Source: Rhodopseudomonas palustris
GTDB lineage: Bacteria > Pseudomonadota > Alphaproteobacteria > Rhizobiales > Xanthobacteraceae
DNA length: 64,000 nucleotides
Reading direction: 5' to 3'
Assembly (NCBI RefSeq): GCF_013415845.1
Contig: NZ_CP058907.1
Span: 3,224,001 to 3,288,000 of the forward strand
In this document: one piece after another, positions 24,443-30,580 of the stretch
Layout of the letters: each line of letters begins with the position of its first letter
Position numbering within the stretch: position 1 is the stretch's first letter
Notes under the pieces: model-generated
Told to the model about the DNA's origin: nothing
The model's database searches: none
The model's input: the letters and a program-made list of their open reading frames with translations, nothing else
Position numbers and translations under genes: made by a program

Positions 24443-25768
24443 TCACTCCGCCGCTTGCATGTGCGCCGGATCGAGCACGCCCTGATCGTCGAGCGTGGCC
24501 TTGCGCGAGAAGTCGTCGATACGGCGCTCGATCTCGGGGCGGAAGGCGCGGATCAGGCCCTGGATCGGCCAGGCCGCGGCATCGCCGAGCGCGCAGATGG
24601 TGTGGCCTTCGACCTGCTTGGTCACTTCCAGCAGCATGTCGATTTCGCGCTTATGGGCGCGGCCTTCGACCATGCGGTCGAGTACGCGCCACATCCAGCC
24701 GGTGCCTTCGCGGCACGGCGTGCACTGGCCGCAGCTTTCGTGCTTGAAGAAGTAGCTGATCCGCGCGATCGCGGCGACGACGTCGGTCGACTTGTCCATC
24801 ACGATCACGCCGGCGGTGCCGAAGCTCGACTTCACCGCGCGGGTGCCGTCGAAGTCCATGATCAGCTCTTCGCAATCCGCCGCCGGGATCAGCGGGCACG
24901 ACGCGCCGCCGGGGATGATCGCCAGCAGATTGTCCCAGCCGCCACGAATGCCGCCGCCGTGCTTCTCGATCAGCTCGCGGAACGGAATGCTCATCGCCTC
25001 TTCGACGACGCAGGGCGTGTTGACGTGGCCGGAGATGCCGTAAAGCTTGGTCCCAACGTTGTTGGCCCGGCCGATCGAGGAGAACCACGCTGCGCCGCGG
25101 CGCAGGATGTCCGGGGCGACCGCGATCGACTCGACGTTGTTGACCGTGGTCGGGCAGCCGAACAGACCGACGTTCGCCGGGAACGGCGGCTTCAGCCGCG
25201 GCTGGCCCTTCTTGCCTTCGAGGCTTTCGAGCAGCGCGGTTTCTTCACCGCAGATGTAGGCGCCGGCGCCGTGAGCGACGTAGAGGTCGAACGGATAGCC
25301 GTGAACGTTGTCCTTGCCGATCAGCTTGGCCTCATAGGCCTGGTCGATCGCCGCCTGCAGCCGCTCGCGCTCGCGGATGAACTCGCCGCGGACGTAGATG
25401 TAGCCGGTGTGGGCCCCCATCGCGCAGCCCGCGAGCAGACAGCCTTCGACCAGCGTGTGCGGGTCGTGGCGCATGATCTCGCGGTCTTTGCAGGTGCCGG
25501 GCTCGGACTCGTCGGCATTGACGACGAGATAGCTCGGCCGGCCGTCGGCATTGTCCTTCGGCATGAAAGACCACTTCAGGCCGGTCGGGAAGCCGGCGCC
25601 GCCGCGGCCGCGCAGGCCCGACGCCTTCATCTCGTTGATGATCCAGTCGCGGCCCTTGTCGATGATCGCCTTGGTACCTTCCCACCCGCCACGACGGCGT
25701 GCGCCCTTCAGCGTCCAGTCGTCGAGACCGTACAGGTTCCGGAAGATGCGGTCCTTGTCGTCCAGCAT
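24443..25768 (-). CDS. nuoF: NADH-quinone oxidoreductase subunit F (NADH/FMN binding)
   Basis: Entry point for electrons into complex I: binds NADH, FMN and the N3 [4Fe-4S] cluster. The 441-aa protein has the FMN/NADH glycine-rich stretch [18 protein letters not shown] (about residues 51-68), [19 protein letters not shown] (about 168-186) and the cluster motif [12 protein letters not shown] with the fourth cysteine in [13 protein letters not shown]. The start [14 protein letters not shown] is standard. A small membrane-protein gene, not found in the textbook operon, separates it from nuoE. Confidence 0.97.
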
Positions 25769-25786: not shown

Positions 25787-26002
25787 TCAGCGTTTCGATT
25801 GCATGTAAGCGAGCCCGATAGCGCATCCCCCGAAGGTCAGCGCCCAGATCACGCTCGATTGGAGTGTTGCACCGAGCGCGTAGCGCTGCAGTAGAAATAT
25901 GAACGCTGCTGCGGCGATGCCGTGCAGCAGGATGTAAACAGGAGTCGGCATGGCTCTCGCGCTTTCCGCGACGGCGCGCCCCGCCGGGGCGATCGTCGTC
26001 AT
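25787..26002 (-). CDS. 71-aa two-helix membrane protein between nuoE and nuoF
   Basis: A small protein with an Ala-rich leader and two hydrophobic segments ([18 protein letters not shown] and [19 protein letters not shown]) ending in a short basic tail (QSKR). I do not recognise a named family. Its ATG at 26002 overlaps the nuoE stop in an ATGA, and nuoF begins 18 bases after its stop, so it is almost certainly translated as part of the operon. An internal ATG at 25951 would give a 54-aa protein starting at [11 protein letters not shown] and is a realistic alternative. An accessory or assembly role for complex I is inference from position only. Confidence 0.7.
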
Positions 26003-26748
26003 GGCGGGTTCTTCTCGGTGGCGTCGGCCGCAGGCGGCTTGGGCGCCGGGCGCTCTTGGACGTTGGCAGCCGCCCCCGCCCGCTTCGCGTCATTGTCGGT
26101 CAGGGCCGGCCCATTGGAGTCGACCGGCGATACGTTGATACCACCCGACTTCAACGTGGTCGGGCCGGTCATCGGTGCCGCGTGCTGGCGGCCGTTCTGC
26201 GGACCCGGCGTCGGCGGATTGCCGCTGGCAAAGCCGTCCAGCACCTTGTTCAGCGTCTCCGGCGTCAGATCCTCGTAGGTATCCTTCCAGATCTGCACCA
26301 TCGGCGCGTTCACGCAGGCGCCGGCGCACTCGACCTCCTCCCAGGAGAAGTCGCCGTCGGCGGACAGATGGAACGGGTCGTGATGGATCCGGTTCTTGCA
26401 GACTTCGATCAGCTCCCCGGCGCCGCGCAGCCGGCACGGCGTGGTGCCGCAGACCTGGACGTGGGCTTTCTTGCCGACCGGGTTGAGCTGGAACATCGTG
26501 TAGAAGGTCGCCACTTCCAACGCGCGGATGTGCGGCATCTGCAGCATGTCGGCGACGGTGCGGATCGCCGCTTCCGGCAGCCAACCGCCGCACTGCTCCT
26601 GCGCCCGCCACATGATCGCGATCACCGCCGAGAACTGCCGGCCCGGCGGATACTTCGTGATTTCCTTCTGCGCCCAGGCAAGATTTTCCGCGGTGAACGC
26701 GAAGCTCTCGGGTTGCAGCTCTTTCGGTGCCAGTCGACGAACGGACAT
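25999..26748 (-). CDS. nuoE: NADH-quinone oxidoreductase subunit E, with long C-terminal extension
   Basis: Thioredoxin-fold subunit of complex I carrying the N1a [2Fe-2S] cluster, 249 residues. The cluster cysteines are in VCGTTPC (about residues 98-104) and [11 protein letters not shown] (about 138-148). The start [19 protein letters not shown] follows the stop of the methyltransferase gene by two bases. E. coli NuoE has about 166 residues. Here roughly 75 extra residues after DGFASGNPP are rich in Pro, Ala, Gly and Asn with no predicted fold. The upstream frame is open further, but it belongs to another gene's antisense and lacks homologous character. Confidence 0.96.
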
Positions 26749-26750
26749 GC

Positions 26751-27722
26751 TCAGTTTCTCGCCGAGCGCTGCGCCACGCTCGCATTCAGGTGTTGGATCC
26801 GGGCCTGCCAGAACGCGCTTGCGGTTCCGACGACGTTGTAGCCGACATTCGACGCGACCTTGATCCGGTCGAGAATGCCGAGATCGACCACGGCCTCGTA
26901 GCGATTGCTTTGCGGGTCGTACACGACCAGCTTCAGCGGGGTGTGTTCGAGGATGTAGCGCGACACCTTGTGATCGCGGTCGCTGCCGTGCTCTTCGCAC
27001 AGGATCGCAGTGTCTTCGGCGAGCAGCCGCTCGCCGCCGCGGATCGCGTCGATCTCGACACCCTCGACGTCGAGCTTGACGATGTACTTGCCGCCAAGCG
27101 GCAGATGGCCGTCATCGATCAGATCGTCGAGACGGATCACCGGCACGTCCTCGCCGTCGACGCCGGGCTTGCCGGCGATGCTGAACGCTTCGTGCTTGGT
27201 GCCCGACAGCTTGGCGGTGCCGCGCGCGGCGCCGACCGCGCACTTCATCACCGAGAACCGGTTGCCGTTGACCCTCGCATTATGCGTCAGGCGGGCGAAG
27301 TTCTGGCTCGACGGCTCGATCGCCAGGGTGCGATGCGCACCGAAGGGCGCGCTCGATACCAGGACCGACCAGTAGCCGTAATTCGCGCCGCAATCGATCA
27401 GCGTGTAGTCAACGTCGGCGGCGTCGCGGAACAGCAGGTCCAGCTCGATCTCGTAATCATAATCGCGCTGCAGCAGCTTGCTCCAATAGCCGTCGCCGTA
27501 GGGAAACACGAAGGTCGCGTCGGGATTGAGCTTGATCGCGATGTCGCGCTCCGGCAGCGCCTTGCGCATCAAATTCGCCGCCGCGTTGTAGCCGCGATAC
27601 GAGAACGTCGACGACACCCGCGCGCCCATCACCAGCGCGCACGCCGCAGCGCGCTCGAGGGCACCGGCGCCCTCGAGAGCGCCGGTGGCGCGGTCAAACT
27701 GGATGGGCTCGGGCACGTTCAC
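26751..27722 (-). CDS. FkbM family SAM-dependent methyltransferase
   Basis: A 323-aa methyltransferase inserted between nuoD and nuoE. The SAM-binding core shows [17 protein letters not shown] (motif I, about residues 122-138), [17 protein letters not shown] (acidic loop) and the FkbM hallmark [20 protein letters not shown], then ILCEEHGSD. The likely start is the GTG at 27722, whose GTGA overlaps the nuoD stop; a second GTG lies two codons in. Base composition looks like its neighbours, so it is not obviously recent. FkbM enzymes usually O-methylate sugars or small molecules; whether this one acts on complex I, a quinone-related compound or a glycan is unknown. Confidence 0.88.
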
Positions 27723-28927
27723 CGATCGACCTCTCCGAACACGATGTCGAGCGAACCGAGGATCGCCGAGACGTCGGCGAGCAGATGGCCGCGGCTGAGG
27801 AAGTCCATCGCCTGCAGATGGGCGAAGCCAGGCGCACGGATCTTGCACTTGTAAGGCTTGTTGCTGCCGTCGGACACCAGGTACACGCCGAACTCGCCCT
27901 TCGGCGCCTCGACCGCGACATAGACTTCGCCGGCCGGGACGTGGAAGCCCTCGGTGTACAGCTTGAAGTGATGGATCAGCGCTTCCATCGAGCGCTTCAT
28001 CTCGCCGCGGCGCGGCGGGAAGATCTTGTGGTCGTCGACCACAACCGGCCCCTGCCCGTCCGGCGCCCGCAGCTTGGCAATGCACTGCTTCATGATCCGA
28101 ACCGACTGCCGCATCTCTTCCATGCGGATGTGGTATCGGTCGTAACAGTCGCCGTTCTTACCGATCGGAACTTCGAAATCGAGCTCGGCGTAGCATTCGT
28201 AGGGCTGCGACTTGCGCAGGTCCCAGGCCGCGCCGGAGCCGCGCACCATCACGCCGGAGAAGCCCCAGGACCACGCCTGATCGAGCGTCACCACGCCGAT
28301 ATCGACGTTACGTTGCTTGAAGATGCGGTTGTCGCTGAGCAGACGGTCGAGATCGTTCACCACCGCCGGGAATGCGTCACACCAGGCGTCGATGTCGTCG
28401 ACAAGCTTCGGCGGCAGATCCTGATGCACACCGCCGACGCGGAAATACGCGGCGTGCATCCGGCTGCCGGAGGCGCGCTCGTAGAACATCATCAGCTTTT
28501 CGCGCTCTTCGAAGCCCCACAGCGGCGGGGTCAGCGCACCGACGTCCATCGCCTGCGTGGTGACGTTGAGCAGATGCGACAGGATGCGGCCGATCTCGGC
28601 ATACAGCACGCGGATCAGTTGGGCGCGGCGCGGCACCGCGATCCCGAGCAGCTTTTCCACCGCCAGGCAGAAGGCGTGTTCCTGGTTCATCGGCGCGACG
28701 TAATCGAGCCGATCGAAATACGGAATCGCCTGCAGATAGGTCTTCTGCTCGATCAGCTTCTCGGTGCCGCGATGCAGGAGGCCGATATGCGGATCGACCC
28801 GTTCGACCACCTCGCCGTCGAGCTCCAGCACCAGCCGGAGCACGCCGTGTGCCGCCGGATGCTGCGGACCGAAATTGATGGTGAAGTTGCGGACGCTGGC
28901 AGCGTCGGGAGCAGCAGCGTCAGCCAT
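27719..28927 (-). CDS. nuoD: NADH-quinone oxidoreductase subunit D
   Basis: The 49-kDa subunit of complex I that forms the quinone-binding site with NuoB, 402 residues. Its fold is that of a NiFe-hydrogenase large subunit without the metal ligands. Landmarks are [21 protein letters not shown] (quinone-site histidine, about residues 20-40), [28 protein letters not shown] and the C-terminal [18 protein letters not shown]. The start [19 protein letters not shown] is normal. The stop codon overlaps the GTG of the FkbM gene. Confidence 0.98.
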
Positions 28928-28978: not shown

Positions 28979-29593
28979 TCACGACTTCACTCCCGCCTTC
29001 TCGTCTCCGGGAAGGACCGGATAGTCAGCCCCTTCCCAGGGCGATAGGAAGTCGAACTTACGGAACTCCTGATTGAGCCGCACCGGCTCGTAGATCACCC
29101 GCTTCTGGTCGTCGTCGTAGCGAACCTCGACGAAACCGGTCAGCGGAAAATCCTTGCGCAGCGGATGACCATCGAAACCATAATCAGTCAGCAGCCGGCG
29201 CATATCGGGATGACCGGTGATGACGATGCCGTAGAGGTCGTAGGCTTCGCGCTCGAACCAGTCGGCACCGGGAAACACCTCGATGATCGACGGCACCAGC
29301 GTGGTCTCGCCGACCTCGGCCTTCACCCGCACCCGCTCGTTCAGCTTGGGCGAAAGCAGGTGATAGACGATCTCGAACCGTTCCGCGCGGCCGGGATAGT
29401 CGACCGCGGTCATGTCGATGAAGCTGATGAAGCGGAAGCGCGGATCGTCGCGCAGCAGCCGCATCACCTCCACGATTTTGCCGGCATCGACCGTCAGCGT
29501 GAGCTGGCCGAATCCGACCGAGTGACCGGTCGCGATGCCCGGCAAGGCGCCGACGATCGTCTGACCCAGGGTGTCGAGCCCGTTGTCGTCCAT
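28979..29593 (-). CDS. nuoC: NADH-quinone oxidoreductase subunit C
   Basis: The 30-kDa peripheral subunit of complex I, 204 residues. It is a separate protein here, not fused to NuoD as in E. coli. Diagnostic residues are [21 protein letters not shown] and the signature [33 protein letters not shown] stretch followed by [19 protein letters not shown]. The ATG at 29593 lies 13 bases after the nuoB stop. Confidence 0.97.
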
Positions 29594-29606: not shown

Positions 29607-30203
29607 TCAGCGTTCGATAGTGCCGGTCCGCCGGATTTTCTTCTGCAGCAGCATCACGCCGTACAGCAGCGCTTCGGCGGTGGGCGGACAGCCGGGCACA
29701 TAGATGTCGATCGGAACGATGCGGTCGCAGCCGCGCACCACGGAATACGAATAGTGGTAGTAGCCGCCGCCGTTGGCACACGATCCCATCGAGATCACGT
29801 AGCGCGGCTCCGGCATCTGGTCGTAAACCTTGCGCAGCGCCGGGGCCATCTTGTTGGTCAGCGTGCCGGCGACGATCATCACGTCGGACTGACGCGGCGA
29901 CGCACGCGGCGCGAAGCCGAAACGCTCGGCGTCGTAGCGCGGCATCGACAGCTGCATCATCTCGACGGCGCAGCAGGCGAGACCGAAGGTCATCCACATC
30001 AGTGAGCCGGTGCGCGCCCAGGTGATCAGGTCATCGGTCGCAGCGACGAAGAAGCCTTTGTCGGACAGTTCGCGGTTGACGTTGAGAAAGAACGGATCAT
30101 CCGCCCCGACCGGCCTGCCGGTGTTGGGGTCGATGATGCCGGTAGCGGGCCGCGCGATCAGCGGCTGCGCGCCGACCGGATGTTGCGACGGCGTCGGCTG
30201 CAT
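29607..30203 (-). CDS. nuoB: NADH-quinone oxidoreductase subunit B
   Basis: Subunit of complex I holding the N2 [4Fe-4S] cluster next to the quinone. The 198-aa protein has the tandem cysteines in [12 protein letters not shown], the third in [15 protein letters not shown] and the fourth in [15 protein letters not shown] chose the ATG at 30203 ([11 protein letters not shown]). An in-frame ATG at 30224 would overlap the nuoA stop region by ten bases and add MGLRPET; both are possible. The N-terminal 35 residues before [11 protein letters not shown] are poorly conserved in the family. Confidence 0.96.
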
Positions 30204-30214
30204 CGTCTCAGGCC

Positions 30215-30580
30215 TCAATCCCATTCCAGAGCGCCCTTCTTCCATTCGTAGGCGAAGCCGACGGTCAGGACGCCAAGGAATACCATCATCGACCAGAAGC
30301 CGGTCGCACCGAGCTTGCCGAAGGCCACCGCCCACGGAAACAGGAATGCGACTTCGAGGTCGAAGATGATGAACAGAATGGCGACAAGGTAGAATCTGAC
30401 GTCGAATTTCATGCGGGCATCGCTGAAAGCATTGAATCCGCATTCATAGGCGGAGAGCTTTTCCGGGTCCGGTTGCTGATACGCCACCGCGAACGGCGCG
30501 ACCAGCAAAACGAAGCTCAAACCAGCCGCAACGATGATAAAAACGACGATTGGCAGGTAGTTAGACAGAATGCCGCTCAT
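30215..30580 (-). CDS. nuoA: NADH-quinone oxidoreductase subunit A
   Basis: First gene of the nuo operon; a 121-aa membrane subunit of complex I with three helices. The conserved loop [39 protein letters not shown] is visible in pieces: ECGFN (about residues 46-50), FDVRFYLVA and [10 protein letters not shown], which carries the conserved acidic pair. The ATG at 30580 gives [10 protein letters not shown]; a GTG one codon upstream is an alternative. Confidence 0.96.

Follow-up and report, generated by a model that had tools for sequence, protein, structure and literature searches.

A predicted FkbM-family methyltransferase gene between nuoD and nuoE in Rhodopseudomonas palustris and its relatives

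We analyzed a 64,000-nucleotide stretch of the Rhodopseudomonas palustris genome (assembly GCF_013415845.1, contig NZ_CP058907.1, positions 3,224,001 to 3,288,000), which we call the window and which belongs to a single contig of 5.32 Mb. On its minus strand, within the nuo operon that encodes complex I, lies a gene for an FkbM-family methyltransferase (MT) of 323 amino acids (26751..27722). Its reading frame starts with GTG at 27722 and runs for 323 codons to a TGA stop. The start codon of the MT gene overlaps the TGA stop codon of nuoD in the sequence GTGA (27719..27722, minus strand), and two bases (26749-26750) separate its stop codon from the nuoE start (ATG) at 26748. According to curated NCBIfam models, the same-strand neighbors are nuoB, nuoC, nuoD, nuoE and nuoF; nuoG is assigned from its location and from matches in relatives. 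The nuoD gene (27719..28927) encodes the 49-kDa subunit, with 402 amino acids and the HRG motif kept. Models from Pfam and NCBIfam also identify nuoE (25999..26748; 249 amino acids), nuoC (28979..29593) and nuoF (24443..25768), all on the minus strand.

A sequence-only reading of the window had proposed an FkbM-type methyltransferase with exactly this overlap and this two-base gap, and both the sequence and the family models bear it out. MT scores 51 bits against PF05050 (Methyltransf_21; cut-off 22.7) and 80.1 bits against TIGR01444 (fkbM_fam; cut-off 37.7), and a Pfam scan at E-values up to 0.001 returned PF05050 alone. Motif I, DCGANYG (residues 110-116; 27375..27395, minus strand), the putative site of S-adenosylmethionine (SAM) binding in this family, is conserved in our alignments, with D110, G112, A113, N114 and G116 at least 98% identical across 233 rows. 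Three further motifs lie on the same strand. The first, DGYW (residues 77-80; 27483..27494), is a signature of the MT subfamily, and its D77, Y79 and W80 are invariant in alignments A1, A2 and A3. The others are KLDVEG (residues 216-221; 27060..27077), which alignments and structural model place at the end of strand 212-217, and EEHG (residues 243-246; 26985..26996), at the end of strand 237-244, with E243 and H245 invariant in the same three alignments. The residues of all four motifs are invariant or nearly so.

The AlphaFold2 model of MT (mean pLDDT 89.7) has the Methylobacillus FkbM protein 2py6 as its best Foldseek match (E-value 3.9e-8), and 2py6 is the sole match of profile A2 in the PDB at an E-value of at most 0.1. 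A second structural comparison returned catechol O-methyltransferase (COMT), which had the best Z score (14.4 over 165 residues), and other class I methyltransferases. Together, model and alignment point to a class I Rossmann-like SAM methyltransferase fold with an intact motif I. The structural comparisons left the substrate un-narrowed, and there is room for families outside the match list. Hydropathy reveals no transmembrane-like window in six of seven MT proteins (maximum 1.06), while that of locus L215 reaches 1.94 within the stretch holding its SAM strand. Values of pN/pS (nonsynonymous relative to synonymous differences) are 0.13-0.14 for MT against three near relatives (L004, L006 and L008), compared with 0.04-0.07 for NuoD, and go up to about 0.5 against more distant relatives. 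Judged by sequence, MT is a functional gene: selection on it is purifying, and its catalytic motifs are conserved. A spurious open reading frame is ruled out by the family matches, the purifying selection and the confident AlphaFold2 model.

MT is like other FkbM proteins (PF05050/TIGR01444; 2py6) in sequence family and class I SAM fold, but its subfamily has the signature D.YW ... DCGAN.GYWS ... KLDVEG.E ... E.HG.D..H and resides in nuo and copper operons, not in a natural-product or glycan cluster. We found no description of an FkbM gene in nuo or copper-resistance operons in the open-licence PubMed Central literature; the FkbM family is known, and the subfamily resident in these operons appears to be undescribed. 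Used as a query of its own genome, the MT protein retrieved no further relative at an E-value of at most 0.001; one other PF05050 gene is present there.

MT occurs in 14 of 16 genomes of the genus, and in all 14 it is between nuoD and nuoE. The two genomes without it are G014, whose nuo locus we examined, and G009. Among named loci from the GTDB collection (the best 80 of 328 relatives, a selection favoring close kin), 78 have the order nuoD-MT-nuoE, and L141 and L145 are the exceptions. By their record titles, these loci are mainly from Bradyrhizobium, and also from Rhodopseudomonas, Tardiphaga and Afipia. Among 149 sampled genomes of the family, 59 are MT-positive (E-value at most 1e-20), and comparing coordinates by hand showed that MT adjoins nuoD in 48 of these. 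The remaining 11 consist of five genomes of genus g10 with a copy of the PCu(A)C type described below, four with only a copper-operon copy, G118, where MT is at a contig end, and G153, where the match is weak (75 bits).

Beyond the family, a sample of the order (397 genomes) gave 32 MT matches, 15 of them outside the family. Eleven of these 15, from seven further families and with 34-42% identity, occupy the nuoD-nuoE junction. A class sample (385 genomes) gave 7 matches, and none of the four outside the order has nuo genes in the retrieved stretch. A phylum sample (349 genomes), searched with a broader profile, gave 12 matches at an E-value of at most 1e-25. All positives are lower bounds, with alignment scoring the best 15, 5, 5 and 6 first-look candidates per genome in the family, order, class and phylum samples, respectively.

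The sequence-only reading had called for such a survey, and had held that restriction to this strain, or a position free of nuo in close relatives, would speak against its proposal. The insertion recurs at nuoD/nuoE across the genus, the family and further families of the order, and 14 of 14 genus copies are in nuo. A strain-specific gene is thus ruled out, both by the 14 of 16 genus genomes and by the family and order matches. Nuo-located MT spans up to eight families, and we infer that its residence at this junction dates back to an ancestral Hyphomicrobiales lineage. The nuo genes form a textbook operon, yet MT is part of it in Rhodopseudomonas, Bradyrhizobium, Afipia and Tardiphaga. Does a position kept across up to eight families reflect a role in complex I, or only a convenient promoter?

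MT is not an obligatory nuo gene, given that NuoD is present in 144 of the 149 family genomes and MT adjoins it in the 48 mentioned. We examined 56 MT-negative nuo loci. In these, nuoE follows nuoD within at most 597 bases, and nuoB, nuoC, nuoF and nuoG lie in order around them. Loci with a second NuoD were left out of these counts, namely L242, L248 and L278, which have no nuoE match, and L291, in G141; L292 was too incomplete to be included in the tree. In Azorhizobium, nuoD and nuoE have consecutive locus tags, as given in PMC3357923. A second, distant nuo operon of the window genome, whose NuoD is 40% identical, lacks MT between nuoD and nuoE.

Three separate losses of MT fall inside the MT-bearing part of the nuo tree: G014, in the same genus, G109/G129/G163, and G124. 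Apart from this, nuoB-G are intact in all three lineages. In G014, the 91-base gap between nuoD and nuoE can be read, in a single frame, as the opening and closing codons of MT, judged by eye against L123 and the window. The other two lineages retain a copper-operon copy of MT, and G014 retains none. Parsimony on the nuo tree gives nine changes in MT presence over 99 distinct loci. Because the losses leave nuoB-G intact, complex I can do without MT.

Where MT is retained, its history largely follows that of nuo. Distances between MT proteins correlate with those of nuo (rho 0.89 for 42 nuo-located loci, excluding L166 and L167), with none of 300 permutations as high, and the two trees have 20 of 39 splits in common. 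Near loci alone give a rho of 0.60. Duplicates were removed beforehand (L141 = L148, L144 = L173, L139 = L175 and L130 = L184), and L149 and L159 have the same MT sequence.

Two unusual cases occur at this junction. In genus g48, an FkbM gene at the nuoD-nuoE junction (L166:6153-7040, minus strand; L167:6278-7204, plus strand) is 29-30% identical to the window MT, while nuoD and nuoE abut in two sister genomes (L244 and L267). The tree leaves it either as a fast-evolving orthologue or as a second independent insertion. The other case is the nuo-located MT of G081 (L168:6691-7305), which lacks its middle, and with it most of the SAM domain, yet remains open and in frame and keeps both ends.

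One explanation on which the G081 copy bears is that MT serves complex I as an accessory subunit, with a methyltransferase fold but a structural role. The precedent is CI-PIMT of Paracoccus denitrificans, a protein with the fold of protein isoaspartate methyltransferase (PIMT) that is tied to alphaproteobacterial complex I and is described in PMC11522691 as a catalytically dead subunit bound to NDUFS3. That G081 lost the center of MT but kept its frame and both ends would fit such a role, although a lone decayed copy also resembles a dying gene. The SAM-motif residues, in a set without L166, L167 and L168, are at least 98% conserved, unlike the changed cofactor residues of CI-PIMT. In addition, losses are tolerated, and copper-operon copies have no complex I genes alongside. 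MT belongs to FkbM rather than PF01135, its motifs are intact, and the core-less G081 copy is the sole one with a degenerate cofactor site. A dead scaffold role is unlikely because MT is of another family and its motifs are intact, and we regard the accessory-subunit explanation as a whole as highly improbable. An active MT bound to complex I as a subunit is compatible with the sequence.

As PMC11522691 also reports, R. palustris has a PIMT that resembles the complex I subunit of Paracoccus and is likewise inactive. We found three clear PF01135 (PIMT) genes in the window genome, and the weakest (101.6 bits; L295, G000:C1:2745692-2746249) may be a candidate for CI-PIMT.

Copies of MT also occur outside nuo. 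We found MT paralogues in 10 copper-resistance operons (L146, L149, L152, L154-L159 and L164). In L164, where 13 of 14 called genes were scanned, the order is outer-membrane efflux protein, multicopper oxidase, cupredoxin, CusF, MT, DUF4396/multicopper oxidase, CopC, CopD and OpgC. Based on common BLAST clusters for the other nine, multicopper oxidases and OpgC, a periplasmic glucan acyltransferase, are present in 10 of 10 loci and CusF in 9 of 10, the stretch of the tenth ending there. OpgC is the next called gene downstream of MT in six of the 10, and three of the loci also have a FemAB/GNAT-like gene. The copper paralogues differ from the window MT in operon and form a separate clade (support 100/99) at 41-47% identity to it. 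In four other loci (L172, by Pfam, and L161, L162 and L171, by clusters), MT is beside a gene for a PCu(A)C copper chaperone. The five genomes of genus g10 have the PCu(A)C-type copy only, and their nuo operon (NuoD 73-76% identical) is without MT.

In a tree of 81 rows, the copper (9) and PCu(A)C-type (5) rows each form a well-supported branch, and nuo-located rows lie on either side. The simplest reading of this tree is that nuo is the older home of MT and that the copper and PCu(A)C copies are derived. Across 228 distinct proteins of the nuo, copper, PCu(A)C and ATP-grasp types (a set excluding L166, L167 and L168), 46 positions are at least 98% identical. Positions 7, 23, 122, 130 and 181 set the two types apart, being conserved among nuo-located copies but different in copper-like proteins. 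This comparison used 107 copper-like proteins from a protein search; with the nine distinct copper copies whose operon was verified, the separating positions are 7, 122 and 176. None of the positions that separate nuo from copper copies is among the invariant motif residues.

A third setting puts MT beside an ATP-grasp-like gene, in five distinct loci and two contexts (L145, L150, L151, L147 and L148, which equals L141), where the ATP-grasp-like calls are weak PF15632 matches below the cut-off. The recurrence of these pairs in both contexts is consistent with a small-molecule methyltransferase acting on a catechol-like or quinone-related compound, or on the product of the ATP-grasp partner, instead of on a glycan. 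The COMT match noted above agrees with this. Moreover, D218, after strand 4, and E243 and H245, on strand 5, are presumably where COMT has its metal ligands. We nevertheless judge a small-molecule target to be quite improbable.

The sequence-only reading had put complex I first as a possible target. MT would in that case methylate a residue of a Nuo subunit encoded on its own transcript, or a bound cofactor, and tune assembly or stability, and the copper copies would do likewise under copper stress. That MT lies between two genes of the peripheral arm in as many as eight families and overlaps nuoD translationally is as expected under this explanation. All 59 family positives have NuoD, though so do 85 of the 90 negatives. 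Copper stress damages respiratory enzymes, which would be a rationale for the copper copies, and two of the three loss lineages (G109/G129/G163 and G124) hold a copper-operon copy. By contrast, G014 lost MT and is without any copy, the five g10 genomes keep a copy outside nuo and none inside, the second nuo operon of the window genome has none, and few conserved residues are specific to nuo copies.

We also looked, within NuoB-G only, for residues that track the presence of MT. Comparing the three losses gave nothing in NuoB, NuoC and NuoF, and weak columns in NuoD, NuoE and NuoG, for example NuoE 126 and 174, each in two of the three; none is a convincing convergent change. When 99-109 MT-positive rows, depending on the gene, are compared with 55 MT-negative rows, the columns that differ resemble lineage markers.

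A methylation linked to complex I does have precedent, as the sequence-only reading had argued from NDUFAF7. PMC3750175 describes dimethylation of the HRG arginine of the NuoD homologue in Paracoccus and mitochondria, and the window NuoD keeps this motif. NDUFAF7/MidA (PF02636) is, like MT, a SAM methyltransferase associated with complex I. However, MT is of a different Pfam family, has no PF02636 match and shows no sign of a NuoD target. The window genome has a separate PF02636 gene (G000:C1:4766258-4766962), so the NuoD arginine mark needs no MT, and this gene rules out NDUFAF7-like arginine methylation as the main explanation. Taken together, the losses in intact nuoB-G, the separate PF02636 gene, the lack of a tracking residue in NuoB-G and the copper paralogues run against the proposed target, and we consider that MT modifies complex I to be doubtful.

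The copper-operon copies suggest a target common to other processes and not complex I itself. More nuo-specific conserved residues would be expected if the nuo copies had a different target; given that there are few, nuo and copper copies may share one chemistry and probably one substrate class. Three distant members of the family adjoin an O-antigen ligase (L177), a glycosyltransferase group 1 (L225) and, on the opposite strand, a glycosyltransferase 25 (L314). These neighbors, the company of OpgC and the roles of other FkbM proteins point to a hydroxyl on a sugar-containing envelope component. FkbM and NoeI both O-methylate a hydroxyl.

We therefore tentatively favor, at somewhat less than an even chance, an O-methyltransferase of an envelope glycan or similar molecule that is a dispensable resident of nuo and was re-recruited to copper operons. 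The enzyme would be a catalytically intact FkbM-type O-methyltransferase that uses SAM, as its motifs indicate, and would be translated with complex I from the nuoD/nuoE site, from which it appears to have been repeatedly lost without harm to the rest of the operon. Acting on the cytoplasmic side, it would most likely methylate a hydroxyl group of a glycan, glycolipid or glucan precursor of the cell envelope. Residence in nuo would give expression tied to respiratory growth. Synteny and tree show that duplicates were recruited to copper operons with opgC, to the PCu(A)C locus and to ATP-grasp-like loci; in those settings the same modification would come under the control of copper or other signals. 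In Acidithiobacillus, periplasmic glucans are a proposed but unproven aid to copper tolerance (PMC6070983). The sequence-only reading had named a glycan or small-molecule target as its alternative. Such a target fits better than complex I, and it is putative.

Several observations weigh against an envelope-glycan substrate or the history proposed with it. The MT genes of the 10 copper loci reduce to nine distinct sequences from about four lineages, and the six loci with an adjacent OpgC are five near-identical ones plus one. Because 137 of the 149 family genomes have OpgC, whether or not they have MT, the link between MT and OpgC may be incidental. Six distant members were annotated (L224, L227 and L228 were left out), and the three not mentioned above (L221, L223 and L226) are near genes for solute- or periplasmic-binding proteins. 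The root of the tree is arbitrary (midpoint), and long branches were flagged. Since the distances of MT and nuo are uncorrelated among the 11 most distant nuo loci (rho -0.03), lateral transfer into the same spot is possible there. Finally, a gene with no tie to respiration is not obviously expected to keep one spot for so long.

Another explanation is that MT is purely a passenger. An FkbM gene of unrelated function would have entered a tolerant junction and been kept by the rigidity of the nuo operon, and its place would be meaningless. This explanation overlaps with the envelope-glycan one, which adds a substrate class and a promoter benefit, and the likelihoods that we assign do not sum to one. 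Nuo operons of the order do hold other cargo between MT and nuoE, in L217 and L216. Of 155 distinct loci, 37 have a spacer of at least 300 bases at C-D and 45 have one at F-G; at D-E, 14 of the 56 loci without MT have one. The agreement in outline of the MT and nuo trees is as expected for a passenger. However, spacers of at least 700 bases are otherwise rare (14 in the other four junctions together), and 48 of 59 positives are in nuo although relocation clearly occurs. A pure passenger is, in our view, rather unlikely. From the cargo-tolerant junction and the spacer counts, it follows that the fixed place may stem from one ancient insertion into a rigid operon, together with the benefit of the nuo promoter, and not from a partnership with complex I. 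The cargo genes are for an L,D-transpeptidase (YkuD; L217:3852-5234) and a helix-turn-helix regulator (L216:5813-7797).

A more speculative proposal, to which we give only a small chance, is that one enzyme family links respiration and copper, with the nuo and copper copies placing the same methyl mark on a target that both settings require. The target could be a shared residue of the respiratory chain or of a metalloprotein, or else a glucan of the envelope by which copper uptake is limited. A basal mark would then come from the nuo copy, and the copper copy would add to it under stress. Loss of the nuo copy would be easier given a copper copy, as in G109, G129, G163 and G124; G014, with neither, is a counter-example.

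The substrate can also be approached through the paralogues in copper operons, whose invariant residues are nearly the same. A mark on an envelope glycan would mean that a single modification ties respiratory growth to copper stress; a mark on complex I would be a modification new to the bacterial complex.

Another unannotated gene in the same operon, separate from MT, encodes a predicted membrane protein of 71 amino acids between nuoE and nuoF (25787..26002, minus strand). Its start overlaps the end of nuoE, and a Pfam scan of the protein gave no match. It is matched in 76 of 156 distinct nuo loci (E-value at most 1e-3), comprising 74 of 100 MT-positive and 2 of 56 MT-negative loci. Both of the latter, L233 and L237, are recent losers of MT.

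The longest reading frame for nuoB (29607-30443, minus strand; 278 amino acids) has its start called too early: the initial portion runs over nuoA in a different frame. An internal methionine near residue 73 is probably the true start.
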